Assembly: GCF_004944975.1 (NCBI RefSeq)
Contig: NZ_SPQG01000019.1
Location: 1 to 38,212, forward strand
Direction of reading: 5' to 3'
Source of the DNA: Halorhabdus amylolytica
Lineage (GTDB): Archaea > Halobacteriota > Halobacteria > Halobacteriales > Haloarculaceae
Length of the DNA stretch: 38,212 bases
Made by a program: the position numbers and the translations under genes. The notes under the pieces are model-generated. The model had not been told where the DNA came from. It worked only from the letters and a program-made list of their open reading frames with translations, and did not search any database. The number at the start of each line of letters is the position of its first letter. Within the stretch, counting starts at the first letter, position 1. Positions 16,619 through 38,212 of the stretch are shown in pieces.

Positions 16619-16849
16619 ATGGGCCCGCTCGGGGAACTTCCAGAACGCTCTGGAGCGTCAGCGATGAATACTCCGGAGCGTACAGTGCTGAAAAGCCGCT
16701 TGAGATGTGTTGAAATAGTGACTGAACTTTTGAAGAATCATCATAGCAATGCAGATCAATCCCTATCTGGACCCACACCGGCCAAACAACGTCTTGACCA
16801 ATACATTTGCTACGGTCTGATCAAGCTAGGTCTCTCCACTGATACCTAG
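16619..16849 (+). CDS. Doubtful small protein
   Basis: This 76-codon frame lies after the AT-rich operator-like region. It may equally start at the ATG at 16664. The middle (RLRCVEIVTELLKNHH) could form a helix, but I see no family signature and the composition is not acidic, unlike most haloarchaeal proteins. It may be a remnant. Confidence 0.3.
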   Translation: MGPLGELPERSGASAMNTPERTVLKSRLRCVEIVTELLKNHHSNADQSLSGPTPAKQRLDQYICYGLIKLGLSTDT

Positions 16850-16972: not shown

Positions 16973-18148
16973 CTATTGTAATTCCTCATTCAAAACCGGC
17001 GTCAAATGTTCGTGGAATTCCGCCAGCCGGCCAACGGCCCACACTTTGAGATCCTCGTCTTCCAGAGCGTCGTCCAGTGGGCCCACCTCCCGTTTGACAT
17101 AGAGTCGCGTGTACCCGCTACTGCCGTACCCCTCTGAATGGATCTCTCCGGAGATGTCCAGTGAACGGTCTTCGATTGCCGACTGCATTGTCTCAAGCAT
17201 TTCCCCGTTCCGTGAGGACTCGTCAAACTGAAAGTTCATCACGACGTGGAGCTCCTTGTCGCCAGGATCCCCTTTGAAGTGCCACACGAATTCGACATCC
17301 GTGTGGCCGGCCGGAATCGTGAGCCAGCTGTCGCTACTGGCACTCCTGCTGGTGACGCCGGGGAGTTCTTCTTTAAAGCGTCCGAGCACTTCGGCGAAGA
17401 ACCGTCGGTACTTCTTCTGTTTCGGCGATTCCTCCTGTTCTTTGATTTCCTGCGTCTCGTCGACACCGATGATCGTCGGGACGAACATCTCGGCATCGTT
17501 CTTCTCGTAGTAATCGAATTCAACGCAGTTGATCTTCAGATCGTGTTCGTCCCGCAGCCAGCGCGTCATTCGCCGGACGTCGTCGGTCATCGTGTACGCG
17601 ACCAGCATGAGCTGGGGCGACTCCAGCCTCTCAGTGAACTCCCGCTCGAAGTCGTCGATGTCAAACTCCGAGTCTTCTTCGTGGTCGAACGCTCTGTAGA
17701 GTTCCTCCACCGACTCATAGTCGGTGAGGTCGAAAAATTCGTCTTGGTCCATCCGGGCCAGTGAGGACGCATAATCAAATAGTTGGGTCGCGGCTGATCG
17801 CGGCGACCGGTCGCGCTTGAACTCGATCGTGGTAAGCGTCCCACGTTTGTCACAAACAAGTAGATCTGGCTCCTTGCCGGTCGGTAACTGGAGCTTGCTC
17901 CCAAGAACGACGTTCTCCCGGGTCGTGAGCGTCCCCATCACTAGCCTCGGATCGCTGTGGATCACCTCGTGAAGGTCGTCCTCTAGATGTTCCTCGCTGT
18001 ACTCCACCTCCTCGAGATACTCAATTTCGTCATCCTCGCGGCGAAAGCCGATCAATGACATTACCATAGATGCCAGGAGCCATCCAAAAGATCTTGCCCC
18101 GTCGACATAGCGGCCGGGCAAGGGTCGATTTGCATCGCTTCGGGCCAT
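16973..18148 (-). CDS. PD-(D/E)XK nuclease with DUF4268-like C-terminal domain
   Basis: In the 391-residue protein the nuclease core lies near 55-130: Glu61 in LHEVIHSDP, then PDLLVCD (Asp95), TTIEFKRD (Glu109, Lys111), and the following helix with Gln122 and Tyr126. The catalytic pattern is complete. The C-terminal part (about 255-385) resembles DUF4268, a domain often attached to restriction-like nucleases. The N-terminus has one weakly hydrophobic stretch (21-35) that may be a membrane contact or an over-long start. It begins 4 bases after the stop of the upstream nuclease gene, so the two are almost certainly one operon. A defence function is inferred. Confidence 0.75.
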   Translation of the reverse strand: MARSDANRPLPGRYVDGARSFGWLLASMVMSLIGFRREDDEIEYLEEVEYSEEHLEDDLHEVIHSDPRLVMGTLTTRENVVLGSKLQLPTGKEPDLLVCDKRGTLTTIEFKRDRSPRSAATQLFDYASSLARMDQDEFFDLTDYESVEELYRAFDHEEDSEFDIDDFEREFTERLESPQLMLVAYTMTDDVRRMTRWLRDEHDLKINCVEFDYYEKNDAEMFVPTIIGVDETQEIKEQEESPKQKKYRRFFAEVLGRFKEELPGVTSRSASSDSWLTIPAGHTDVEFVWHFKGDPGDKELHVVMNFQFDESSRNGEMLETMQSAIEDRSLDISGEIHSEGYGSSGYTRLYVKREVGPLDDALEDEDLKVWAVGRLAEFHEHLTPVLNEELQ

Positions 18149-19556: not shown

Positions 19557-20729
19557 ATGGAACGAGATGATTTCGACGAGACGGCTCCCGGTGAAATCGT
19601 TCCTACGACTACACAGAAGGGAACGTACTCGGCGTTTCGGCCCGATCCGCTTCCGCCCGCAATCAGCACTGAGCAACTCATTACGCCGCTGGCGGAAGCG
19701 ACGCAGGCACTTGGTCGACTCCATGGTATCGGTCCCCGTGTCGGATCGCGAGAGATACTCATCGAGCCATTCATCCGAAAGGAAGCACTGGAATCCTCGC
19801 AAATCGAAGGGACACATGCCACACTCTCTGACATCTACGCCTATGAGGCTGGACAAGAAGCGCTCATCCACGAAGACAGACGACAGGGGACACAGGAGGT
19901 TGTGAACTACCTGCACGCACTGACTCACGGATTAGATGCGATCACAGCGGGCGATCCGATCACTGTCGAGCTACTGTGCGAAATGCACGACAGATTGCTT
20001 TCAGGTGTCCGCGGAGATGCGGCCAATCCAGGCGAACTCCGCGCGACTCAGAACTTCATCGGCAGTACGCCCTACATCCAGGACGCCAGGTATGTTCCGC
20101 CACCACCGAACGAGATTCCCGACCTTCTAGCGGACTTGCTTGAGTACGCAAACCAAGATGTTGATCTCCATCCGCTCCTCCGGACCGGACTGATCCACTA
20201 TCAGTTCGAGACCATTCATCCGTTTCTCGATGGGAATGGTCGTCTCGGGCGGCTGTTAATCAGTCTCCTTTTGCAACGAGACGGCCTCTTGCCCGAGCCG
20301 TATCTATACTTGAGTTCGTATTTCAATGCACGACGCTCGGACTACGTCGACCATCTCTTAGCAGTAAGCCAGCATGGCGAATGGGAGGAGTGGCTGCTGT
20401 TCTTCCTTCGTGGCGCCCAATCACAGGCAGACGAAGCTCACCAGCGGGCAAATCTATTGGTCGACCTCCGTGAGGACTATCAACAGCGCTACCAGAGTGA
20501 GCGGTCTGAGAACATCCTGGAGCTTGTCATGCGGCTGTTCGAAGATCCATACCTCGATGTGAACACGGCAGCCGAGTGGTTGGGGGTAGAATACAGTACG
20601 GCTAATCGGCTCGTTGGGCAGCTCGAGGACGACGGAATACTCGAAGAGCTCACCGGAAAAGAGCGAAATCGGTTCTATCGAGCAAGCGAGGTCTTCGAGA
20701 TCATTAACAAGCCAATCGACCGACTCTGA
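19557..20729 (+). CDS. Fic-domain AMP-transferase-like protein with C-terminal winged helix
   Basis: The 390-residue protein has a canonical Fic active site, HPFLDGNGRLGR, at 221-232. An N-terminal inhibitory helix carries SSQIEG (80-85), matching the (S/T)xxxE(G/N) motif of class II Fic proteins, in which the Glu blocks ATP until relieved. Residues about 320-385 form a winged helix (TAAEWLGVEYSTANRLV). The length and layout match the widespread Fic/DUF4172-like group. It would transfer AMP or another nucleotide to a protein hydroxyl; the target is unknown. The ATG at 19557 gives the family's usual N-terminus; a TATA-like TATTTTTATTT lies about 55 bases upstream. Confidence 0.9.
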   Translation: MERDDFDETAPGEIVPTTTQKGTYSAFRPDPLPPAISTEQLITPLAEATQALGRLHGIGPRVGSREILIEPFIRKEALESSQIEGTHATLSDIYAYEAGQEALIHEDRRQGTQEVVNYLHALTHGLDAITAGDPITVELLCEMHDRLLSGVRGDAANPGELRATQNFIGSTPYIQDARYVPPPPNEIPDLLADLLEYANQDVDLHPLLRTGLIHYQFETIHPFLDGNGRLGRLLISLLLQRDGLLPEPYLYLSSYFNARRSDYVDHLLAVSQHGEWEEWLLFFLRGAQSQADEAHQRANLLVDLREDYQQRYQSERSENILELVMRLFEDPYLDVNTAAEWLGVEYSTANRLVGQLEDDGILEELTGKERNRFYRASEVFEIINKPIDRL

Positions 20730-21470: not shown

Positions 21471-21740
21471 CGCTACTCCTTGTGCCTTCTTCCTCTGTAC
21501 TTCCCTATTGCAACATTGTGACTGGAGCTCTCAACTAAACTCGATTCGTGATTCGGCCGAGTGAAGAACGGCAACCACAACCGGCGATTGATCTTTACGT
21601 CCCGGTTCGAGGATTCGACTGAGCGCAAATCGGACGAGCATGTGGCCACTCTCGAGAAAATACAGTCCGACGTTGACACGGATTCACCATTCGGCTTGCA
21701 AAACTCGGACACCACTTTCGGTTTGCGTCAGAGCATTCGC

Positions 21741-22754
21741 ATGTCCACTGAACTTGACCCACTCGATCCAGCGACCGCCCGACAGATGTACCTCGACGAG
21801 CGACGCAACGAGCTCGCTGTTGCGACGATTCAGTCCCACGGGTACCGACTCCAGCAGTTTGTCGACTGGTGCAACCAGGACGGCATCGAGAACCTGAACG
21901 AACTCTCCGGGCGAGACGTGCATCGCTTCCGCGTCGACCGACGGAACGAGGACGACCTCGCCACCGCGACCATGAAGGGCCAGCTCGCAACGCTACGGAT
22001 CTTCCTGAGATTCTGTGCGAGCGTCGACGGGGTCGAGCCCGGGATGGACGAAAAGATCATTCTCCCGCGGACGACGGCGGAGGATGCCCGTGACGAACTC
22101 GTCAATCCCGACCGTGCCAGACAGATCCTCGAGCACCTCGATCGATACCGATACGCCACGCTGGAACATGCACTGCTTTCGGTCCTCTGGCACACAGGGC
22201 TGCGGATCGGTGCGGCGATCAGTCTCGACGTGGAGGACTACGATTCCGGCGAGCAGTACCTGGATCTGGTCCACCGTCCTGCGGATGGGACGCCGTTGAA
22301 GAACGGCGCACATAGCGAGCGTTTCGTCGCCCTGTCCGAGCGAGTCTGTACTGTCCTCGACGACTGGCTCGAGGTGAACCATCCGGGTGTCGAGGACGAT
22401 TACGGGCGATTGCCGCTGTTCGCGACGCGACGGGCTCGACTGAGCAAGAACCGCGGACGGACGATCGCCTACCAGTACACTCGCCCGTGCGTCTACTCGA
22501 ACGAGTGCCCACACGACCGAGACGAGGAGACTTGCGAGGCTCTCTCGACTGCCCGCGCGTACGCCTGTCCGTCGGCGATGAGCCCACACCCGTTCCGTCG
22601 CGGGGCGATCACGTACCACTTGCAGCAGGACACGCCGGAGAAGGTCGTGAGCGATCGGATGGACGTGGGTATGGACGTGCTGGAACGCCATTACGACCAG
22701 CGATCGGCGAAAGACAAACTACGTCAGCGGCGCCGCTACCTTCCAGACGACTAA
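21741..22754 (+). CDS. Tyrosine recombinase/integrase
   Basis: The 337-residue protein has a SAM-like core-binding domain (about 10-105) and a catalytic domain with Arg155 (HTGLRIGA), Lys187, His283 and Arg286 (SPHPFRRGA) and nucleophile Tyr318 (LERHYDQRS). The set is complete, so it should be active. Between strands and active site it carries four cysteines (250, 256, 265, 276) that probably bind zinc, a halo-type insert also seen in the recombinase at 26959-28086. The ATG at 21741 is chosen over an upstream frame without domain content. The following 458 bases (22755-23212) hold no gene I can support; no attachment site was identified. Confidence 0.9.
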   Translation: MSTELDPLDPATARQMYLDERRNELAVATIQSHGYRLQQFVDWCNQDGIENLNELSGRDVHRFRVDRRNEDDLATATMKGQLATLRIFLRFCASVDGVEPGMDEKIILPRTTAEDARDELVNPDRARQILEHLDRYRYATLEHALLSVLWHTGLRIGAAISLDVEDYDSGEQYLDLVHRPADGTPLKNGAHSERFVALSERVCTVLDDWLEVNHPGVEDDYGRLPLFATRRARLSKNRGRTIAYQYTRPCVYSNECPHDRDEETCEALSTARAYACPSAMSPHPFRRGAITYHLQQDTPEKVVSDRMDVGMDVLERHYDQRSAKDKLRQRRRYLPDD

Positions 22755-26958: not shown

Positions 26959-28086
26959 TTAGCCATTCCACGCACTTCTGACCGCGTTTGACCGATCTTC
27001 CTTCCGCCTTCGTTTCGTCCGCGGATCGTAATGCTTCCGGATGGTTTTGATCGAAACGTCGAACCGCTCGCTTGCGATCGCGGGTTGGAGACCTCCACTG
27101 AGATGGCGGACGATCGCGCCACGACGGATCGCATGTGGGTAGTACGAGTAATCGCAGATGTCCGAATCGGGGTTACAGCTTCCATCGCATGAGCAGTCTT
27201 CGGAACTATCTGATCGCCAGCGGCAGCTCGTCGCCTCGTAGACCCGACGACGGAGTGTCGATCGAGTTGCGCGCCCGTGGGTCGTTGCAAAAAGCGGTTC
27301 TCGGCCAAACTCGTCCGTCACGTTCGGACGCTCGTGATCGAGATACCACTCGATGGCTTCGACGGCCTGATCGCAGAGTGCGACGTTACGTTCGCCATCG
27401 CCTGCTGTGTTCTCGTCTTCGCTCCCGTTCTTTAGTCGGGTTCCACTTTGAGGCCGATGTCTCAGCCGGACCTCGCTGTTGGCGGGATCGAAGTCCCGGA
27501 TATCTAGCGAGTGCGCACCGCCGAGACGCAAGCCGGCGTTCCAGAGCAGTTCGAGAAGCGCGTGCTTCAGTGAGCCACGCCGCTGGCGACGAAGTTTCCC
27601 GAGAATAGTGTTTGCTTGCTCTTCCGGGAGTGCCTCGTCACGGGCCCGCGGATTGAGTCCGAGTTCGTCCTCGTCGAGGATCTGGTAGACTGCGTCCTCA
27701 CACTGATTGCGCCTGTTGAGCCACCGCAGCCAACTGCGGACGTTCTTCGTATAGGTGAGGATCGTCGAGTCGGTATCGTACTGCCCCTGGAGTTGATCGA
27801 CGTACGCGTCGATCAGCGCAGTCGAAATACCTGCTGGTGTGGTGACGCCCTCGTTTTTGGCGAATTCGATGAACTTTGGAAGTGTCCGACGATACTGGGC
27901 TCTCGTCGCCGGGCTCCGGTCACGTCTCCGTGCGAGGTACCGGTTGTAGAGTTCCTGAAGGGTCGGCACTTCCGACGAATCGGTCTGTCCATCGGCAGTG
28001 CGATCGCTTTGGGACAGTTCGAGTACTTTCTCGATCGTTTCTGGATCGTTGACGTCTGCCAGGACGTCGGCAATGGATTCTGTCAT
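26959..28086 (-). CDS. Tyrosine recombinase, catalytically complete member of an overlapping pair
   Basis: The 375-residue protein has a core-binding domain near 40-130, then Arg187 (NAGLRLGG), Lys219 (TRLKNG), His318 and Arg321 (YPHAIRRGA) and nucleophile Tyr353 (IRKHYDPR). A cysteine-rich insert just before the HxxR motif (C288, C298, C300, C304, C311) probably binds zinc. Its start overlaps the stop of the upstream recombinase-like gene by 4 bases (ATGA), so the two proteins are made together. It shares the phage-integrase fold with the recombinase at 21741 but differs clearly in sequence. Confidence 0.9.
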   Translation of the reverse strand: MTESIADVLADVNDPETIEKVLELSQSDRTADGQTDSSEVPTLQELYNRYLARRRDRSPATRAQYRRTLPKFIEFAKNEGVTTPAGISTALIDAYVDQLQGQYDTDSTILTYTKNVRSWLRWLNRRNQCEDAVYQILDEDELGLNPRARDEALPEEQANTILGKLRRQRRGSLKHALLELLWNAGLRLGGAHSLDIRDFDPANSEVRLRHRPQSGTRLKNGSEDENTAGDGERNVALCDQAVEAIEWYLDHERPNVTDEFGREPLFATTHGRATRSTLRRRVYEATSCRWRSDSSEDCSCDGSCNPDSDICDYSYYPHAIRRGAIVRHLSGGLQPAIASERFDVSIKTIRKHYDPRTKRRRKEDRSNAVRSAWNG

Positions 28087-28976
28087 CGTTGTTCGAGGAT
28101 CGTGGACATCGCGTACTGCCAGATGTCGTGGGGAACGACTGGTCGCGATTCGCCGGCCGATTCAGGTGAACTGCTCTCACTCATCTGCTTGATCGAACGA
28201 CGCAAAGTAGCGGGACTCACGCGCCCCTGGCGTGTTGAGAAAACTGGCTGTTCACTGTCGCCGTCAAGATCTGGGCGCTCGTATTCGATGTACGTTTCTA
28301 CGGCGTCAACTGTCGTAGCAGTGAGGCGAGTAACGCGTTCGGTAACCAATCCGGCTACACTCACTAGGTGGGTGTCGGGAACACCTACGGTCACAGAACT
28401 GCGCTCGAGGTCAAGATCTGCGAGATCGATCTGTCGAATTTGCTCGGGCCGACCTTTTGTGTCCACAAGGAGCTCGACGTAAGCATGCGCACGGGTTCCG
28501 AAGTGACGCTGTCGAAGATTGGCAAGGAAGCGTGGAACCTGATTCTGTTCGTCTTCATTTTTGGTTCCATCGACGAGCTGATCACCCAGCTTCTGAAGTT
28601 GTGACTCTGGCGAGGCACATAGCGCCGAAGCGATTTCGTATGTTAGTATCTCTGGATCACGTTCATGGTGGTAAGCGAGCGCGTTTGCTACGGTCGAGAT
28701 ATACCCACGGATCGTGCTCGTGGAACATCCCGACTCAGAAAAGAGATACTGAGCGAATTGGACGACGATGTCGCACTCAGTGACTTCTGGACTGCATGTC
28801 TGTTCATCGTACCACTCGTAGAACGTAGATGACTGAGACTTGTGCGATCGGTAGGTCGTAACTGGAACCGCACTGGAGATGCTATCAAGGTAGTTATCCA
28901 GTGTCTCATGTAGGTCGTCTTGAGCGCGCGCGCCAGATCGGTCGCAATCTCGGCGGGTCAACTTCCCCACCCCCAA
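28083..28976 (-). CDS. Tyrosine recombinase-like protein lacking catalytic residues
   Basis: The 297-residue protein keeps the recombinase fold. It has an N-terminal SAM-like domain (about 25-105: TTYRSHKSQSSTFYEWY, then STIRGYISTVANALAYHH) and a catalytic-domain outline with LLVDTKGRPEQIRQIDLADLD and TLRRSIKQM. It lacks the HxxR motif (PHDIWQYA in that position) and ends before any nucleophilic Tyr. It is therefore probably an inactive partner that helps the overlapping active recombinase choose or bridge sites. The start is uncertain (TTG at 28976 or 28961); a TATA-like CTATTATC near 28987 would favour the latter. Confidence 0.7.
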   Translation of the reverse strand: MGVGKLTRRDCDRSGARAQDDLHETLDNYLDSISSAVPVTTYRSHKSQSSTFYEWYDEQTCSPEVTECDIVVQFAQYLFSESGCSTSTIRGYISTVANALAYHHERDPEILTYEIASALCASPESQLQKLGDQLVDGTKNEDEQNQVPRFLANLRQRHFGTRAHAYVELLVDTKGRPEQIRQIDLADLDLERSSVTVGVPDTHLVSVAGLVTERVTRLTATTVDAVETYIEYERPDLDGDSEQPVFSTRQGRVSPATLRRSIKQMSESSSPESAGESRPVVPHDIWQYAMSTILEQR

Positions 28977-29673: not shown

Positions 29674-30819
29674 ATGAGCGACTGGACAATGAACGGACGA
29701 GCCGACAGCGAGTCATGTAAAAATGATGATAAAGAAGGCGCGCTCGCTTACGCGCGTGTGAGTGACCCTAAGCAAGTGCGAGAAGGACAAAGTTTGGAAG
29801 CTCAAAAGAATTGGACGGCAGAAGAGGCCGAAGCACGTGGACTTGAATTGGTGAATACCTTCAGTGACTCGGCGAAGTCAGGTACTAACTTCGAACGAGA
29901 GGGTATACAAAAGGTCAGGGACGAAGCTGAAAAAGAACGCATCTCCTATGTGATCGTAGACGAGCTTGACCGGATCGGGCGGCATGCAGTCGAGACCGTG
30001 TACTACGTCTACGAGCTTCGAGAGGACTGTGGTGTCAAAATCATCGTAAACGAAGCGAGAGATGTCCTCGACGTAGCCCAATATCAAGACCTAAGCTATA
30101 TTATGAATCGCGCATTGGCTTCGCAAGCCAGCGTCGAGACGCAGGCTCGAAGAGCAGAAGCCGGACGGGCCAAAAACTTCACTGAAAAGAAATGGAATTC
30201 AGCATTTAAATACGTTCCTATTGGCTACAAAGAAAATGATGACGATAACTGGATCTCGACAGAAGTAACCGAGATAGGTGTCGTCCAGGAGCTGTTTAAA
30301 AACTTCATAGGGTCTGATATATCTAGACCATTCGCTGAGACACTCGACAAAACACCCACCCTAACCGAAGACTTTGGCCGGCAAAGACTTCGAAATACTC
30401 TTGAACGCCCTCTCTACGTCGGGGAGCCAACCACAGGATTTGTTGATTACACACGTAACGATCAATCTAAAGAAGAGACGACAGTCATCGACAGGTCGCT
30501 ACGGATCATCAGTGATGAAACTCGTGAAAAAGCTCTTGAGAAGCTTAAAGAAATTGATGAGTATTACACTGATGCCAAAGAAGAAGGAGAAGATGTAGAA
30601 TCGTTAGTCAGCGAGCACGGCCCAGAACCTGTTGTTGATTGTAGCGAAATCATTCAGGTCCGTTGCCCAGAATGTGATACAGAAATGATGAAGAACGGAA
30701 TCCGTGAATGGAATGATCACATCGGCCGAAAATACTTGTGTCCGGCCTGTGGGCGACATCGCCTGTTCCCGAAGCAGACTGAGATGGATCAACTAAGGGA
30801 CCAACCCGAAGACAATTAG
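29674..30819 (+). CDS. Serine recombinase with C-terminal zinc ribbon
   Basis: The 381-residue protein has a resolvase/invertase catalytic domain (about 22-160): ALAYARVSDPKQ with catalytic Ser30, the SGTNFEREG segment, and VDELDRIGR. A helix with ASQASVETQARRAEAGR and a Recombinase-type DNA-binding domain (about 175-260: VPIGYKEN, LRNTLERPLYVG) follow. A zinc ribbon (CPEC...CPAC, about 330-362) closes the protein. The last part replaces the longer coiled-coil module of typical large serine integrases. The gene is AT-richer than its neighbours and lies convergent to the second serine recombinase. Integration, excision or inversion of DNA is expected. Confidence 0.85.
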   Translation: MSDWTMNGRADSESCKNDDKEGALAYARVSDPKQVREGQSLEAQKNWTAEEAEARGLELVNTFSDSAKSGTNFEREGIQKVRDEAEKERISYVIVDELDRIGRHAVETVYYVYELREDCGVKIIVNEARDVLDVAQYQDLSYIMNRALASQASVETQARRAEAGRAKNFTEKKWNSAFKYVPIGYKENDDDNWISTEVTEIGVVQELFKNFIGSDISRPFAETLDKTPTLTEDFGRQRLRNTLERPLYVGEPTTGFVDYTRNDQSKEETTVIDRSLRIISDETREKALEKLKEIDEYYTDAKEEGEDVESLVSEHGPEPVVDCSEIIQVRCPECDTEMMKNGIREWNDHIGRKYLCPACGRHRLFPKQTEMDQLRDQPEDN

Positions 30820-30865: not shown

Positions 30866-31804
30866 TTAATTTATCCAGTCTCGGTATTGCTCAAGGATTC
30901 GTTCGACACGACTTGTCTTTCGTTTGTTCTTCATTCTGGTTCGACTGTGGCTTTGATCCCCACTAAATCGCGTTCTAATTGATCTGGCCTCATCGAAGAG
31001 ATCATCGGAAACAATCCGATACGACTCCTCTTTCCGCTCGATATCTCCTACCGAATATCTGCCGATATATAACTGGTTTCTCAGGGTCGCGCTCAGAGAT
31101 GCTGTCGTCCAAGATCGATGACCGGATTCCCGTTCGTTTAGCTCTTCGGCGACGTTTGCCATCGATTTCATCTCAACGTATCGTTCGAAGATTCTTCGAA
31201 CAATAGAGGCTTCAGACTCAACGATTTTCAATCGCCCGTCAGGGGTAGCCTCATACCCGAGTGGTGGGGACGCATTGGGCCATTTGCCTTCCATCGCTCG
31301 TGCTGCGTGTCCCATCTTGGTCCGCTGCCGGATCATTTCCCGTTCGAACTCCGCGGTGTTCGCCAGGTTCCGGAAATTGAACTGTCCCGAAGGCGTTGTC
31401 GTATCGATTTGTTCAGTGACGCTGTGGAGAGCAACGCCCCATTCTTGGAACTTCTTCTCGAGCTGGACAGCGTGCATAATGCTCCGTGAGAACCGATCGA
31501 TCTTCCAGAACACCACCACGTCAATTTGCCCGTGCTTCGCCCGGGTCAACATCTCCTGGAACATCGGCCGATCCGTATCTTTCCCGCTCATTGCCTCGTC
31601 GCGGTACACGAACGCCACTGTCCAGTCCAGTGCTCGACAGCGGTCGACGCATTGTCGGACCTGTTCGTCTATCGAGTATCCAAGTTGCTGTTTTGTCGTT
31701 GATGTCCGCGCGTAGATCGCCGCTCTCTGCTGTGGTCGCTCTTCACCGTCCATATTGCCGGCGTCACGGGGTACGGTGGTGACGGGCGCAAAACTCTGGT
31801 TCAT
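30866..31804 (-). CDS. Serine recombinase, third gene of a coupled operon
   Basis: The 312-residue protein has a resolvase domain with YARTSTTKQQLGYSIDEQ (Ser35 nucleophile), DEAMSGKDTDRPMF, FWKIDRFSRS and EFEREMIRQRTKMG. A Recombinase-type DNA-binding region (PPLGYEATPDGRL, LRNQLYIGRYSVG) and a basic C-terminal tail follow. It is clearly distinct from the convergent serine recombinase. Its ATG overlaps the stop of the TFB gene as ATGA, and that gene overlaps the Cas4-like nuclease gene, so the three proteins should be made in fixed proportion. No attachment site was recognised. Confidence 0.88.
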   Translation of the reverse strand: MNQSFAPVTTVPRDAGNMDGEERPQQRAAIYARTSTTKQQLGYSIDEQVRQCVDRCRALDWTVAFVYRDEAMSGKDTDRPMFQEMLTRAKHGQIDVVVFWKIDRFSRSIMHAVQLEKKFQEWGVALHSVTEQIDTTTPSGQFNFRNLANTAEFEREMIRQRTKMGHAARAMEGKWPNASPPLGYEATPDGRLKIVESEASIVRRIFERYVEMKSMANVAEELNERESGHRSWTTASLSATLRNQLYIGRYSVGDIERKEESYRIVSDDLFDEARSIRTRFSGDQSHSRTRMKNKRKTSRVERILEQYRDWIN

Positions 31805-32637
31805 GATTTGTTCTCGTCTTGTCCGGACTGATTCGAGGCTCGTCGGCCGTTAACGGCTTCCCGACAGTCCTTTACTCTGAGTCGAATCGTCTCAGTCGTC
31901 ACTCCCGTGGCAGTCGCGATCTCACGCTGTGTGATCGCTCCTTCCGCAGCGAGGTAGAGTGCGGCTCCTGCGAATGCTCCTGGATGTTTCCCGCAGAGTT
32001 GTTTCGCAGGTACGGCCTCGAGTAATTCTTCGGCTACGGATATCGTCGCTTTGTGGATTTCGAGATCTCGGGCGAGGCCACCAAGGTACGTCCGCGGTGG
32101 ACTTGGTTGACTTCCATAATCCAAGTCTTGCCGGAGTACACGGCAGATGCGACGAAGAGAATCCGAATCGACGTCGGCAATGTCAGCTATCCGGCTGGCC
32201 GGAATCGGGTTCTCGCTCTCCTGTCCAGCGACGGTGACACATGCTGTGACGAAGAGCTCCATAGAGCGACCGTCGGTGAGCGTCTCAGTTGCACCGTCGG
32301 CGTAGATTTCCGCTGCCCTCTCTCGAGTGGAGGTCGGAACGTCTAAACGACTCCCCAACTCCTCTAAGTACTCGAAAGCACGTGCAATCTGGTACTCTGT
32401 ACTGTTCGTGACCCGGTGATTTTCTGACCAGCTTTCACGGGCATCTCTGTCTGGTTCAAAATCAGTCAGTGCTTCGTCAAACTCAATTGAGGCGGATACG
32501 ACGGCCCCGCACTCCTGACAGACCGGATCGAGTCCTTCGATCGACCTATCGACTTCAGTCGAGTCACACGCGGGACAGCGAACGTTGTTCGTCCCTGATG
32601 TACTTTGCATGGCCCCCCACGGACCGTTTTCAGACAT
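31801..32637 (-). CDS. Transcription initiation factor TFB family protein inside a mobility operon
   Basis: The 278-residue protein has an N-terminal zinc ribbon (CPACDSTEVDRS...CQECGAVVS) and two cyclin-like repeats, the second ending in ITQREIATATGVTTETIRLRVKDCRE, the DNA-reading helix-turn-helix that binds BRE. It is shorter than general haloarchaeal TFBs, and the B-reader/linker region looks reduced. The start is fixed by a GGAGGT ribosome site 8-13 bases upstream and an 8-base overlap with the preceding stop. A private TFB could direct RNA polymerase to promoters of this element. That is inference from its place between a nuclease and a recombinase gene. Confidence 0.88.
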   Translation of the reverse strand: MSENGPWGAMQSTSGTNNVRCPACDSTEVDRSIEGLDPVCQECGAVVSASIEFDEALTDFEPDRDARESWSENHRVTNSTEYQIARAFEYLEELGSRLDVPTSTRERAAEIYADGATETLTDGRSMELFVTACVTVAGQESENPIPASRIADIADVDSDSLRRICRVLRQDLDYGSQPSPPRTYLGGLARDLEIHKATISVAEELLEAVPAKQLCGKHPGAFAGAALYLAAEGAITQREIATATGVTTETIRLRVKDCREAVNGRRASNQSGQDENKS

Positions 32638-33748
32638 CTCTACCACCTCCTGAAAGAGTCGGATCGTCTGGCATTGGCCCCGAAAGCGTGGCCAAGATGC
32701 CGTTTGATCCGCACTCCTTACAGGCGGGTGCCTGATCAACATCGCCGTCCCAGTCGATCAATCCCACGGCTTTCGTGGTACCACACGCTGGACAGTGCCA
32801 CTCCTGGCTCCCGTGGCTTTCCGCCAGATCGGGATGTACATGCGCGAGCGTGGGAGTCAGCTTTGCGCCCTGATTGGCTTCCAGATACTCGACGACGCTC
32901 TCTCGTGGATATTCGTCGTAAAGGGGAAGGAAACCCTCCGGTCCGAAGCCGTTAGTCTCCGTTTCCCCTTTCCCACACCGCTCGCGATAGTCACAGAACT
33001 CACACTCCCAGTCGTACTCGGGTGTCGCAGGCGGTAACTCGTCGTCGAGTCTGTACTGAGTGTGTTCACGGGCCCACTCGAGGACCACATCTTCCCAGAA
33101 CGCGTCGTCGAATTCGATGTGGAATACCTTGAGGTCCATCGACTTTCGGCCACCGTAGAGGATAACGGCATCGCGAAGGTCGACGTCATACTTCTCGGAG
33201 AGACCGACGAGGTACGCGTGTACCTGCGCACGATGGTGACGATTGGGAGAATCCACGTGATCGAGTGATGACTTCGTCTTGACTTCTATCGGGAGAATGG
33301 GGACGGAGTCCTCGTCGACGATGACTGGATCCGTGGCCCCCTTGATCCTCACCTCTCCGGCGTCTGTCTCGATGGAGGTGTCGATCCACATCGTGTTCCG
33401 GACGTACGTGTTCGGGTCCGTGACCGCGCGTTCGAGGAAAGGGAAGACGATGTCCTCCTCGAAACGCGATCCGAACCAGAAAATTCCATCTGGATCTGGC
33501 TGTTCCGCCGGTGCGTTACACTGACGATAGAATACCTTCCGGTGGCACTGGAGGAGCGAGCTCGGACTGTGTCGCTCTGGGTCGGGAACGTGATCTGGTC
33601 CGTTGAAGTAGGGCGTCCCGTTCTCGATGTTCTGTCTGTGCTGGCGTTCCCGATACCAGTCCTGGAAGCGATCCGCCGAGATCTCATTGAGAAGGCCGCT
33701 GATCGACGGATTTTCGCGATTTGATATGCGTGGTTGTTCTATAGCCAT
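32630..33748 (-). CDS. Cas4-like PD-(D/E)XK nuclease with Fe-S cysteines and an extra zinc ribbon
   Basis: The 372-residue protein has the Cas4/AddB-like pattern. Cys68 (SLLQC) and a C-terminal trio Cys249, Cys252 and Cys258 (CEFCDYRERC) would hold a 4Fe-4S cluster. The nuclease core between has KGATDPVIV (Asp140), PIEVKTK (Glu155, Lys157) and HRAQVHAYLVG (Gln175, Tyr179). Unusually, a second zinc-ribbon-like CxxC pair (319/322 and 343/346) is fused at the end. No cas1, cas2 or repeat array is visible, so a CRISPR adaptation role is unlikely here. DNA-end processing for the recombinase of the same operon is a reasonable inference. Confidence 0.82.
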   Translation of the reverse strand: MAIEQPRISNRENPSISGLLNEISADRFQDWYRERQHRQNIENGTPYFNGPDHVPDPERHSPSSLLQCHRKVFYRQCNAPAEQPDPDGIFWFGSRFEEDIVFPFLERAVTDPNTYVRNTMWIDTSIETDAGEVRIKGATDPVIVDEDSVPILPIEVKTKSSLDHVDSPNRHHRAQVHAYLVGLSEKYDVDLRDAVILYGGRKSMDLKVFHIEFDDAFWEDVVLEWAREHTQYRLDDELPPATPEYDWECEFCDYRERCGKGETETNGFGPEGFLPLYDEYPRESVVEYLEANQGAKLTPTLAHVHPDLAESHGSQEWHCPACGTTKAVGLIDWDGDVDQAPACKECGSNGILATLSGPMPDDPTLSGGGRDV

Positions 33749-33829: not shown

Positions 33830-34222
33830 TCACCGGTCTCCATCGTCGCTCATCTCTTCCAGGAGTGACTGGAACAGGTCTACTGTCGGCGCGTTCGCAT
33901 CGAGAAGAACTGCGGCGATCTGGAAGTTCGTCCCTCGGCAGACCGTTTGTCGCTCGGAGTCATAGACGATGATGCCCGCGTCCGATAGTGTTGGAAGATG
34001 CGTCTGGGAAAGTGCGTTGTACGCGTTCCGATACGGTTCGCCTGTAGCCTGATCCGCGGGCACGTCCTGCTCAAGACTCGCAATCTTTCGCGCCAGGTCC
34101 CTGGTGGTATGGGTAACCTCATCGCTTTCTTGGAGAAACTGGATCACGTATCGTCGCCGAGCTGCCCGGAGCGCATGGTAAAGAGCCGAAAGAAAGTCCT
34201 CAATTGTCGTCACGGACAGCAT
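33830..34222 (-). CDS. Winged-helix protein, DUF7344 type
   Basis: The 130-residue protein matches the haloarchaeal DUF7344 pattern: LSALYHALRAARRRYVIQFLQ, then TTRDLARKIASLEQ, a helix RNAYNALSQTHLPTLSDAGIIVYD that acts as recognition helix and wing, and a C-terminal helix. Such proteins are common small DNA-binding regulators. It is on the same strand as the Cas4-like operon, 81 bases upstream of it, and could be its regulator or first gene. A divergent PhiH1-like regulator lies beyond. Confidence 0.75.
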   Translation of the reverse strand: MLSVTTIEDFLSALYHALRAARRRYVIQFLQESDEVTHTTRDLARKIASLEQDVPADQATGEPYRNAYNALSQTHLPTLSDAGIIVYDSERQTVCRGTNFQIAAVLLDANAPTVDLFQSLLEEMSDDGDR

Positions 34223-34419: not shown

Positions 34420-34683
34420 ATGCGCCCTCGCGTAGAGTGGATGACGCAAGCTGACGAGCGAATCTTGGAGTTTCTACAGGAGAAAGAGATCGTGGCATCT
34501 CCCGCTGTAATCGCTGCGAATATCGATTACACCGGCAAATACGTGTCTAATCGATGCCGAATGCTCGCAGATGCTGGCCTTATTCAGAGAGTCGACGCTT
34601 CGAATTACCAGATTACGGACTTTGGTGAGCGATTTTTGGATGGGGACGTTGAAGCAGAGGAACTAGAGGTTCAAGACAGCTAA
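34420..34683 (+). CDS. PhiH1-repressor-like winged-helix protein
   Basis: The 87-residue protein opens with VEWMTQADERILEFLQ, continues ASPAVIAANIDYTGKYVSNRCRMLADAGLI and closes with YQITDFGERFLDGD. This is the arrangement of small phage PhiH1-type repressors of haloarchaea. The recognition helix is YTGKYVSNRCRML. The role is likely lysogenic-style repression of the neighbouring mobility operon or of its own gene. The start ATG at 34420 keeps the conserved WMT. Confidence 0.85.
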   Translation: MRPRVEWMTQADERILEFLQEKEIVASPAVIAANIDYTGKYVSNRCRMLADAGLIQRVDASNYQITDFGERFLDGDVEAEELEVQDS

Positions 34684-34831: not shown

Positions 34832-35350
34832 ATGGCAGAGAGTTCCCGCGCCGACGGCCCGCCGCCCTTTGACCGGCCGTTTGAAGACGCGGACACGAAA
34901 CAGCGCGTCTACGGGGCGGTCTTCCATGCACGAGAACCGATGACGGCGGCGGAGATCGCTGAGCGAGCGGACTGCTCTGAGGATGCAGCGCGGGCGCATC
35001 TTTCCTTTTACGCCGATCTCGGGATCGTCATCCGCCACGAGGGCCGGCCGGTGAGGTACGAGCGCAATGACGACTACTTCGAGTGGCGGCGAGTGAACGA
35101 ACTCGCGCGGGAACACACCGTCGAAGAGTTGCAGGCTCGCGTCTCAGAGCTCACCGATCAGCTCGAATCGTACCGTGACGAGTACAACGCTGACTCACCT
35201 GCTGACGTCGACGTGCTCGCGTTCGACGCGGACCATGTCGATGACGTGTACGTGGACCTCAGTGATTGGGTTACTGTCGTCGAGGAGCGGCGCCTGCATG
35301 AACGCGCTCGACGGAAGGCCACCAGCTCAACGGCGCAGTCTCACAGCTGA
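34832..35350 (+). CDS. Antitoxin-like winged-helix protein (DUF7342-like), pair 1
   Basis: The 172-residue protein has a helix-turn-helix (about 35-75: MTAAEIAERADCSEDAARAHLSFYADLG). A coiled coil follows (about 88-118: RVNELAREHTVEELQARVSELTDQLESYRDEY), then a C-terminal segment about DVDVLAFDADHVDDVYVDLSDW. The partner gene starts 2 bases after its stop. The homologous pair at 35921-36927 has the same order, which supports a two-gene toxin-antitoxin unit with this as the DNA-binding antitoxin. A TATA-like ATTTTTAGTG precedes the start by about 20 bases. Confidence 0.75.
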   Translation: MAESSRADGPPPFDRPFEDADTKQRVYGAVFHAREPMTAAEIAERADCSEDAARAHLSFYADLGIVIRHEGRPVRYERNDDYFEWRRVNELAREHTVEELQARVSELTDQLESYRDEYNADSPADVDVLAFDADHVDDVYVDLSDWVTVVEERRLHERARRKATSSTAQSHS

Positions 35351-35352
35351 CG

Positions 35353-35778
35353 ATGGTGCCAGTGGAGGACGGCGCGAGCCCCGCGCCGATCGATCGGGCA
35401 GTCTTGCAACAGATGCGGTCTCGATTTCTCGGTAGTCGCCAGATCGACGCCGCTCGTATTCTGGAGGACGAAAAGCTCCACCTGCGCGTCGAATTGTCGA
35501 GTGACTACTACCCGAGCCATTCTTCGGTCCGTCTGAAGATCCGTTGGTACCGCAATGACGGCTTCAACATCTACTATCAGGAACAACGAGACGAGGAGAC
35601 CTGGCAGTACCGATGGGATCGCCATCCGAACGTCCACAATTCGCGAGATCATTTCCATCCACCACCAGTAGCCAGTCGTACTGAGGCCCAGGACGCCGAC
35701 TGGCCAAATGACCATCGTGAGGTGTGCCGTCTCGTCTTGGATTATATCGAAGAGCGGATTGAAACGCTCTGGGAGTGA
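35353..35778 (+). CDS. TumE-like toxin candidate, pair 1
   Basis: The 141-residue protein has the strand pattern VRLKIRWYRNDGFNIYYQEQ followed by WQYRWDRHPNVHNSRDHFHPPP. The RWD-x-HP and HFHPPP motifs resemble the DNaPHH...PHHKH core of DUF6516/TumE-family toxins. The resemblance is by eye and the target is unknown. The gene starts 2 bases after the regulator stop, so the two are co-translated. Its stop codon overlaps the start of a decayed copy of the folded element seen at 16173. Confidence 0.6.
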   Translation: MVPVEDGASPAPIDRAVLQQMRSRFLGSRQIDAARILEDEKLHLRVELSSDYYPSHSSVRLKIRWYRNDGFNIYYQEQRDEETWQYRWDRHPNVHNSRDHFHPPPVASRTEAQDADWPNDHREVCRLVLDYIEERIETLWE

Positions 35779-35852
35779 TATTCTTCGTGCTGTGAACGGA
35801 GTGGGGACGAAGCTTCCTCAGGTAGTCGCGAGTAGCCCGACGACGGCGCGGA
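35775..35852 (+). ncRNA. Decayed copy (C) of the folded element
   Basis: This region aligns along its length with element A at 16173-16250: GTGATATTCTTCGTGCTGTGAAC against GTGACATCCTCCGCGCCGTGAAC, and 19 identical bases at TAGCCCGACGACGGCGCGG. Mutations break the outer stem and the first hairpin, and the GCATACCAGCTAA box is absent, so this is probably a dead copy. A 12-base repeat GAGTGATATTCT occurs at its start and again at 35889-35900. Confidence 0.5.
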
Positions 35853-35920
35853 GGCTGTTACCTGCTCAGATTACTATATCATCCCAAAGAGTGATATTCT
35901 CACGTATCGTACGCCCACCC

Positions 35921-36451
35921 ATGCCAGATCCCGCTCCGACGTTCGAGAATGTGAACGAGCGCGCCAAGGAGGACTGGAAACGTGATACCACTCCCTTCGA
36001 CCGCGTGCGGTCCGTGATGCGCACAGCGTACGATCCCATGACTGCAGCGACTGTCGCGGAGAAATCTCTCACGTCGGAGCAGACGGCTCGCAAGCACCTT
36101 CGCTCGCTGGTCGAACACGGCTACGTGACGGAGACAGCCTCGCCTGACTCGAAGGCCACGCTGTATCGACGGGCGAACGATTCACTCGCACTCGAACAGG
36201 CGCGGCGTATCCTTGACGAGACGGATGTCGATACGCTCTCGACACGCGTCCTGGAGATGCGCGAACAGCTTCGTGAGTACGGCGAGCGGTTCAACGCGGA
36301 CTCGCCCGATGGCGCTGTTCGGGCTCACGCGGATATCGACCCGGAGACACTCATGGAATGGCGAACGACGCGGCGAAACCTCGCGTTCGCCGAGGTAGCA
36401 CTCGCACTCAGTAGCGTCGAAGACGTTTCCGGGGTCGCGGAGGCAGTCTGA
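35921..36451 (+). CDS. Antitoxin-like winged-helix protein, pair 2
   Basis: The 176-residue protein has the same layout as the regulator at 34832. It has a helix-turn-helix (MTAATVAEKSLTSEQTARKHLRSLVEHGYV), a coiled coil (TRVLEMREQLREYGERFNADSP) and a conserved SPDGAVRAHADIDPETLMEW end corresponding to SPADVDVLAFDADHVDD in the first protein. Sequence divergence is large, so the duplication is old or the pairs were acquired separately. Its stop overlaps the next start by one base (TGATG). I chose the ATG at 35921; the longer frame upstream runs through the folded element. Confidence 0.78.
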   Translation: MPDPAPTFENVNERAKEDWKRDTTPFDRVRSVMRTAYDPMTAATVAEKSLTSEQTARKHLRSLVEHGYVTETASPDSKATLYRRANDSLALEQARRILDETDVDTLSTRVLEMREQLREYGERFNADSPDGAVRAHADIDPETLMEWRTTRRNLAFAEVALALSSVEDVSGVAEAV

Positions 36452-36927
36452 TGCAATTTGAGAGTGGAAAGGGTGAGTCTCACGCGCTACGAGGATCGAT
36501 CGACGTGGCGAAACTCGACGCGTTCCGCGATGCGTTCGTGTCTCTCGAACCGATGGCCGCTGGCGCGATTGATGATCGACTTGATCCCCGAGAGCTCCGG
36601 CTTACCATCCCGTACGGTATCGGGGATACTGAGGAGACGACATTCACTGTCCGATGGACGACAGTAGGGGACTATAACATCCACTACTCGGATACGTCCG
36701 AGCGAAACCTTCGCTGGGATATCCACCCACATGAGTTTTCGACACCATCTGATGACCGGCACTTTCATCCGCCACCGAACGCGTCAAACGACGATGAGGA
36801 TGTCGAATCCTCTTGTATCGAGGCAAATCGGATTGATCTCGTTGCCAGGGCAGTTCACCTCCTGTGGAGAAGGGCACTCGACGAAGAGTCAGTGGACAGC
36901 ATCAACGCTGGCACAAACCCACCCTGA
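36451..36927 (+). CDS. TumE-like toxin candidate, pair 2
   Basis: The 158-residue protein has TTFTVRWTTVGDYNIHYSD followed by LRWDIHPHEFSTPSDDRHFHPPP, the same RWD-HP...HFHPPP core as the toxin candidate at 35353. Translational coupling to the regulator gene is the strongest in this region (one-base overlap). The order regulator first, TumE-like second matches known TumA/TumE-type pairs in outline only. Activity on nucleic acid or a cell target is not shown by the sequence. Confidence 0.6.
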   Translation: MQFESGKGESHALRGSIDVAKLDAFRDAFVSLEPMAAGAIDDRLDPRELRLTIPYGIGDTEETTFTVRWTTVGDYNIHYSDTSERNLRWDIHPHEFSTPSDDRHFHPPPNASNDDEDVESSCIEANRIDLVARAVHLLWRRALDEESVDSINAGTNPP

Positions 36928-37836: not shown

Positions 37837-38196
37837 TCACTCAGTAGTATCCTCGTCTGCGAGTTCTTCGTTCGCGAATTCATTCAATTTCTGCAGTCGA
37901 TCATTGAATTCGTCTTCAAAGTCAGTGGCGAGCGCGTCATCGTACAGTTGAAGAGTTCGTCCGAGCCCAATCATCGCAAGCCAGTCTTGGAACTGATCGT
38001 TACTCATATCGTCAACAGGTCTACTCAATTCATCAATATTCGAACCAGCTGCCCAGAGATGGAGAAGATTGAGATCGTTGACCATTGCTAAATAGGCGAA
38101 GTCTGCGAACGCAGCCTGGACTTCGTGTGATAACTGTTTGTAGGAAACCGAATCATAGGGCTCTGGTGAATCGCTAAACAGCGGCGGCTTCGACCG
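37837..38196 (-). pseudogene. 5'-truncated acidic protein fused to the terminal repeat
   Basis: The coding pattern runs from the terminal repeat inward: SPEPYDSVSYKQLSHEVQ, then AAFADFAYLAMVNDLNLLHL, then an acidic helical part ending in EELADEDTTE. The frame is open for 119 codons but has no ATG, GTG or TTG before the internal Met at 38085, and in-frame stops lie just outside in the repeat. The natural start has therefore been lost, or only the last 82 residues are made. I recognise no family. Confidence 0.55.
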
Positions 38197-38212
38197 TCAG
38201 AACTAGGGAGAT
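38159..38212 (-). repeat. Right copy of 54-bp terminal inverted repeat
   Basis: Exact inverted copy of bases 1-54. On this side the repeat continues in frame into the truncated acidic protein, whereas the left copy runs into unrelated sequence. The repeat therefore looks older than, or external to, at least one of its two contexts. Confidence 0.95.

Follow-up and report, generated by a model that had tools for sequence, protein, structure and literature searches.

A TFB-like protein without a B-reader accompanies paired serine recombinases in an exchangeable module of haloarchaeal islands

The window analysed here is the whole of contig NZ_SPQG01000019.1 (38,212 nucleotides) of the haloarchaeon Halorhabdus amylolytica (assembly GCF_004944975.1). 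A preliminary description of this DNA reported three genes on the minus strand at 30866-33748, encoding a Cas4-like nuclease, a protein related to the archaeal transcription factor TFB and a serine recombinase (here Ser1), and proposed that they form a self-contained core of a mobile element carrying its own promoter-selectivity factor. The layout was confirmed: the nuclease and TFB-like genes overlap by 8 bases, GGAGGT lies 5' of the TFB-like ATG, and the TFB-like and Ser1 genes overlap by 4 bases. Overlooked at that stage were a convergent second serine recombinase gene (Ser2), a DUF7344 gene and an attachment (att) copy of a tRNA-Met end. The genes of main concern are as follows.

33748-32630, minus strand: Cas4-like PD-(D/E)XK nuclease (372 aa) with four cysteines of the Fe-S type, D140/E155-x-K157 and a C-terminal zinc ribbon; part of the island backbone
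31801-32637, minus strand, ATG at 32637: TFB-like protein (278 aa) with a zinc ribbon and two cyclin repeats, no B-reader and a shortened linker
30866-31804, minus strand: Ser1, serine recombinase (312 aa) with resolvase and recombinase domains and no zinc ribbon
29674-30819, plus strand: Ser2, serine recombinase (381 aa), convergent, with a C-terminal zinc ribbon; co-varies with Ser1 and the TFB-like protein

In a survey of 391 haloarchaeal genomes, Ser1 was found at 31 loci in 30 genomes and 24 genera, with hosts that include Halococcus morrhuae, Halogranum rubrum, Natrinema zhouii, Halorubrum aidingense and Haloferax massiliensis. Every one of the 31 loci has a TFB-like gene that adjoins Ser1 or overlaps it, and a convergent Ser2 is present at 28. 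The arrangement is thus not restricted to one strain, and the predicted adjacency with overlaps is kept across the 24 genera amid different flanks. Both TFB-Ser1 and Ser1-TFB orders are seen, and therefore the adjacency of the two genes outlasts rearrangement. Of the 31 loci, 23 have the Cas4-like nuclease immediately upstream and five lack it; at the remaining three it is 4-5 kb away, at another contig end, or undecidable at a contig edge.

Across 23 loci, the sequence distances of the TFB-like protein, Ser1 and Ser2 correlate with one another (rho 0.71-0.78, Mantel p=0.001), whereas those of the nuclease show no significant correlation with any of the three (rho 0.01-0.13) despite its place in the same operon. 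The nuclease serves as an internal control, because an effect of common host phylogeny, or of linkage across the locus as a whole, would have been visible in its distances as well. The trio first proposed as a conserved unit therefore stands as far as the TFB-Ser1 pairing is concerned, and the unit has to be extended to Ser2; the nuclease does not belong to it as a co-evolving part, being found equally ahead of a tyrosine-recombinase module or downstream of an Orc/Cdc6-like gene. These observations point to a core of TFB-like protein, Ser1 and convergent Ser2 that would act as a recombination module of archaeal integrative islands.

Relatives of Ser1 beyond haloarchaea were found in an Archaeoglobi metagenome-assembled genome, in two Bathyarchaeota contigs and in a bin labelled Poribacteria, with 45-51% identity, or 38% in the case of one broken copy. 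In three of these four cases, the Bathyarchaeota contigs among them, Ser1 is followed by a TFB-like gene, and a convergent Ser2 is present in two. The Ser1-TFB pair at L219:7926-9778 is on the contig binned as Candidatus Poribacteria, a bacterium; a TFB-like gene in such a place points to an error of binning or to acquisition from archaea.

The TFB-like protein of the window has two PF00382 stretches (E=6.6e-19) and matches the cyclin repeats of TFIIB and solved archaeal TFB structures; its zinc ribbon is weak in Pfam, with all four cysteines in place. Its score against the curated family NF001658 is 126.5 bits, short of the cut-off of 384. Like archaeal TFB (TFIIB), the module proteins retain the zinc ribbon, both cyclin repeats and the C-terminal helix-turn-helix (HTH), but they differ in lacking the B-reader, in the shortened linker, in forming a separate clade and in always lying beside a recombinase gene. 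The B-reader and linker of TFB function in promoter opening and start-site choice. The B-reader motif occurs in none of 38 module TFBs and in all of 23 housekeeping TFBs, and the spacing from zinc ribbon to core is 33-52 aa in the former as against 76-83 aa in the latter, one row in each group being mis-measured by the pattern. B-reader loss and linker shortening make it unlikely that the module TFB starts transcription as an ordinary TFB does, and the promoter-selectivity role first assigned to it was not supported. In a tree of 61 sequences, in which two chromosomal TFBs bear the label of element proteins and the window's module TFB stands in a row labelled housekeeping, the haloarchaeal module TFBs, of which the window protein is one, group as a single clade (SH-aLRT 100) separate from housekeeping TFBs, among them the other TFBs of the window's own genome; the clustering with a housekeeping TFB that would have spoken against the preliminary description was not seen. 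The non-haloarchaeal module TFBs make up a separate long-branched clade, and a common origin of the two groups is not established by this tree. The 20 best matches to the window TFB (E<=4e-30) all adjoin Ser1; the next, from E=7e-27, are ordinary TFBs aligned over the cyclin core only.

Ser1 matches PF00239 (E=9e-40) and PF07508 (E=1e-13); its catalytic S35 is invariant in 21 aligned sequences, and YxRxS is present in 37 of 37. The zinc-ribbon pattern is found in none of the 37 Ser1 proteins, and CxxC...CxxC lies near the C-terminus in 25 of 35 Ser2 proteins, the remaining ten having looser cysteine clusters as judged by eye. Of the features of large serine integrases, Ser1 thus has the resolvase domain with its serine nucleophile and the recombinase domain, and not the zinc ribbon. 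It resembles phiC31-type integrases in these domains and in its match to the PHROG 95 integrase family (E=9e-82); it differs in ending after the recombinase domain and in its near-constant association with a second recombinase and a TFB, and no att site was found adjoining Ser1. Ser1 also resembles CcrB (NF047343, E=5e-39 over 229 residues), at 134 bits against a cut-off of 900, and it stays under the cut-offs for CcrA, CcrB and CcrC, by a wide margin for CcrA and CcrB. The likeness to the CcrA/CcrB pair of staphylococcal cassette chromosome mec (SCCmec) extends to the encoding of two serine recombinases together in an integrated, cargo-carrying element. However, the ccr genes are in tandem, whereas Ser1 and Ser2 are convergent and have a TFB-like partner, Ser1 has no zinc domain, and the archaeal islands, unlike SCCmec, lie at tRNA genes (Met or Arg in the mapped cases). 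A review (PMC8371274) notes the occurrence of archaeal serine recombinases in transposons and describes them as 'never fully investigated'.

The nuclease of the window matches PF12705 (E=1.3e-7). C68, C249, C252, C258, D140, E155 and K157 are invariant in 45 homologues, as is the C-terminal ribbon (C319/C322/C343/C346), which bears out the Cas4-type residues and extra zinc ribbon of the preliminary description. The structure nearest to its model (mean pLDDT 82) is that of the Cas4 protein SSO0001 (4ic1, Foldseek E=1.8e-9). The PD-(D/E)XK fold and residues, the four Fe-S cysteines and the mobile-element context are thus those of Cas4 and of Cas4-like nucleases in mobile elements; the differences are the additional ribbon and a score of 55.8 bits against Cas4 TIGR00372, under the equivalog cut-off of 65. 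No cas1 or cas2 adjoins the gene, its immediate neighbours being the DUF7344, TFB-like and recombinase genes. General profile scans of the window genes gave no Cas1 (casposase), although no search was aimed at Cas1 in particular. The available portion of a Cas4 survey (Hudaiberdiev 2017, PMC5704561) gives the role of Cas4 in mobile elements as unknown, and that portion does not mention haloarchaeal islands, TFB or serine recombinases.

The nuclease gene is present in 56 of the 391 genomes (34 of 86 genera) in three contexts: with TFB-Ser1-Ser2 (S), with a module of an unknown 190-aa protein, a winged-helix-like protein and a tyrosine recombinase (Y), or after an Orc/Cdc6-like gene (O). The nuclease tree has S and Y loci interleaved and requires nine or more changes of context in all. 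Locus L039 (S) can be compared with L042 (Y): the two share 87% identity over the stretch that starts with the winged-helix gene and closes with the nuclease, show no relationship in the recombinase module, and match again, at 86% identity, in a pair of tyrosine recombinase genes, TyrA-TyrB; the exchange junction lies at the nuclease stop codon and Shine-Dalgarno sequence. This backbone is also that of the window, where it holds an S module. The module therefore fills an exchangeable slot between the winged helix-DUF7344-Cas4-like nuclease block and the tyrosine recombinase pair. The S and Y modules are alike in coupling a recombinase to a small DNA-binding protein, and this is the main analogy for a role of the TFB-like protein as a recombinase partner. 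Type Y loci (L040-L043, L045, L047-L050 and L052) have tyrosine-recombinase modules in the slot after the nuclease, often in two copies. At type O loci (L062, L064, L066-L070, L164, L166 and L170-L172), some of them on named plasmids, the nuclease follows the Orc/Cdc6-like ATPase gene, and this is possibly a replicon-type variant. The remaining window features of the backbone and the island are as follows.

33830-34222, minus strand: DUF7344 regulator-like gene upstream of the nuclease, common to serine- and tyrosine-type islands
34420-34683, plus strand: small winged-helix protein, divergent, a backbone gene
28083-28976, minus strand: TyrA, tyrosine recombinase, overlapping TyrB; backbone on the other side of the exchangeable module
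26959-28086, minus strand: TyrB, tyrosine recombinase
21561-22754, plus strand: of the tyrosine recombinases the one closest to the att copy, and a likely integrase for the tRNA site if the Haloferax massiliensis island is a guide
16619-16635, minus strand: att copy of the tRNA-Met 3' end, CCGAGCGGGCCCAT, with the island to its right and the chromosome to its left

The place directly upstream of the module is taken by other genes elsewhere. On the Bathyarchaeota contigs it holds a DUF2130 gene, which we take to belong to a PD-(D/E)XK family, instead of a Cas4-like one. In the Archaeoglobi genome the gene upstream of Ser1 is related (E=6e-22) to one that precedes TFB in Halorutilus salinus; these proteins share an invariant D...E-x-K and have a remoter cousin in the third contig. 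At one locus in Halorubrum vacuolatum a CoiA-like gene occupies the upstream place. CoiA-like genes (competence-type, nuclease-like) were observed at L061:12739-13392, L205:8912-9565 and L157:10062-10694, immediately downstream of Ser1 in two cases and upstream in the third. Judging from motifs, this variety suggests that a nuclease-like slot is common but that its family changes.

The larger island is integrated at a tRNA gene. In Haloferax massiliensis it measures 27.0 kb and lies at the 3' end of tRNA-Arg(CCG) with the direct repeat CCCGTCGGGTCCGTCC, a tyrosine recombinase beside attR and an empty site in two relatives (G152 and G076). The window copy is within a tRNA-Met island, for which two congeners (G145 and G140) have the empty site, with the chromosome of the window's left flank immediately after tRNA-Met. 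The genome of the window has its tRNA-Met on another contig (C12), with island DNA after it; the ends of C12 do not overlap those of the window contig, so that the left half of the island is not placed with certainty. The sequence AATCCGAGCGGGCCCAT with 3 mismatches is, taken alone, near chance, and the att call in the window was made because of the comparison with the sister island G079 and with G145 and G140. The tRNA 3'-end repeat, the empty sites in relatives and the integrase near att are thus all present, and where mapped it is this larger unit, with its tyrosine recombinase near the att copy, and not a self-contained trio, that has the ends of a mobile element. The islands resemble known tRNA islands with tyrosine integrases (PMC8371274) in the 16-bp direct repeat at the tRNA 3' end, the empty sites and the tyrosine recombinase near attR, and differ by the extra exchangeable serine-recombinase/TFB module.

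Element ends made by Ser1 and Ser2 were not found: only tRNA-type ends were seen, and the repeats at 29-37 kb of the window are weak two-copy matches, none of them convincing around Ser1/Ser2. The space between Ser1 and Ser2 in Haloferax massiliensis is taken up exactly by an 8-kb insert (G267:C1:488468-496436; L065/L281) that has a type I restriction-modification (RM) operon, complete by its appearance, and at three further loci (L032, L058 and L212) the gap is filled with 2-4 kb. A cargo slot between the two genes was not upheld as a general rule, the gap being less than about 150 bp in most loci of the TFB-Ser1 order. A viral origin was likewise set aside on the strength of the collections searched, in which no phage record matches the nuclease and IMG/VR gave only distant matches for Ser1 and the nuclease.

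Other parts of the window deserve brief mention. Inside the island are a SoFic-like Fic protein (19557-20729, plus strand; PADLOC E=5.6e-118) and a PDC-S11 candidate defence protein (16973-18148, minus strand). At 34832-36927 on the plus strand, two DUF7342 genes followed by a weak TumE-toxin match (E=8e-4) look like a toxin-antitoxin cluster, and are kept in the sister island G079. Positions 1-54 and 38159-38212 are one 54-bp sequence, inverted, at both contig ends, probably an insertion-sequence end where the assembly broke.

These findings lead us, tentatively, to favour a two-subunit serine recombinase with a TFB-like DNA-binding partner, encoded in an exchangeable module next to a nuclease that would process ends. 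Ser1 (catalytic and recombinase domains) and Ser2 (catalytic domain and usually the zinc ribbon) would be subunits of one enzyme, and the TFB-like protein, lacking the B-reader, would bind or bend DNA for them as a specificity or directionality factor and not serve initiation. The nuclease would probably process DNA ends in excision, repair or cargo exchange. The proposal draws on the co-variation, the complementary zinc domains, the lost B-reader, an adjacency that holds whichever gene comes first, and the likeness to the Y module. A bolder version, which we consider somewhat unlikely, is that a heteromeric serine recombinase has taken up a TFIIB-fold protein as an obligate subunit with an architectural or targeting task. 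A transcription-factor scaffold would then guide site-specific recombination in archaea, possibly at TBP/B recognition element (BRE) sites in the way that TFIIIB guides Ty3 integration, and the module built around it would have spread from one archaeal phylum to another, trading places with tyrosine-recombinase modules.

Several observations weigh against the two-subunit recombinase with its TFB-like partner. Ser2 is missing from its usual position at three loci, and YxRxS is altered in the Ser2 proteins of the Ser1-TFB-order group, so that their activity appears less certain. The co-variation can also reflect linkage on one mobile unit instead of physical contact. No Ser1/Ser2 recombination site was found, and the mapped island ends are of the tRNA type typical of tyrosine integrases. 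Contact with RNA polymerase is still conceivable for the TFB-like protein, as it retains the zinc ribbon and HTH. For the nuclease slot, the case for the alternative families consists of motifs and the DUF2130 assignment, and the nuclease at L159 has a low-confidence model for which fold search gave no significant match.

The most serious alternative, which we hold to be unlikely, is that the TFB-like protein serves the island as a dedicated transcription factor, in line with the preliminary description, or as a decoy blocking host TFBs, and that it controls island genes and regulates the neighbouring recombinases. Haloarchaea are known for their use of many TFB paralogues, PF00382 has 23 domain matches in the window's genome, and the domains retained by the protein would suit such a role; yet the B-reader is absent and the linker shortened in all 38 module proteins, the gene lies on either side of Ser1, and it is tied most strongly to Ser1/Ser2 and not to the island backbone. 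An exchange junction at the nuclease stop codon and Shine-Dalgarno sequence could also be explained if TFB-Ser1-Ser2 were a small mobile element in its own right, nested in the islands by insertion at the 3' ends of nuclease genes, as could the many nuclease contexts and the lack of co-variation with the nuclease. We regard this as improbable: the upstream genes elsewhere are unrelated in sequence yet mostly nuclease-like, which is not expected of a sequence-specific att site, the window module has no convincing flanking repeats, and the right-hand junction falls at another gene boundary (TyrA). The islands carry defence genes (OLD/Gabija-like, type I RM and PbeA/PbeC, besides the SoFic and PDC-S11 candidates of the window), which could place the module and nuclease in a defence or counter-defence system; this is highly improbable, as PADLOC gave nothing for Ser1, only Cas4 for the nuclease and a weak mad1 HTH match for TFB. 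That recombinases and a stray TFB paralogue came to lie side by side by chance in an island rich in unrelated cargo is scarcely credible, being contradicted by the unbroken TFB-Ser1 adjacency, the conserved Ser2, the co-variation and the presence of the module outside haloarchaea.

The open-licence literature searched held no description of Cas4, serine recombinase and TFB together in haloarchaea, in agreement with the preliminary description, although such absence is not proof; the pairing of a TFIIB-like protein with a serine recombinase does not appear to have been described so far. If the TFB-like protein is indeed a recombinase subunit, a basal transcription factor would have been turned into a DNA-recombination factor, a change that we know of in no other system. 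The module offers a testable answer to the role of some mobile-element Cas4-like nucleases and of orphan TFB paralogues in haloarchaea, among organisms with working genetics (Haloferax). It could also give a salt-tolerant integration tool.

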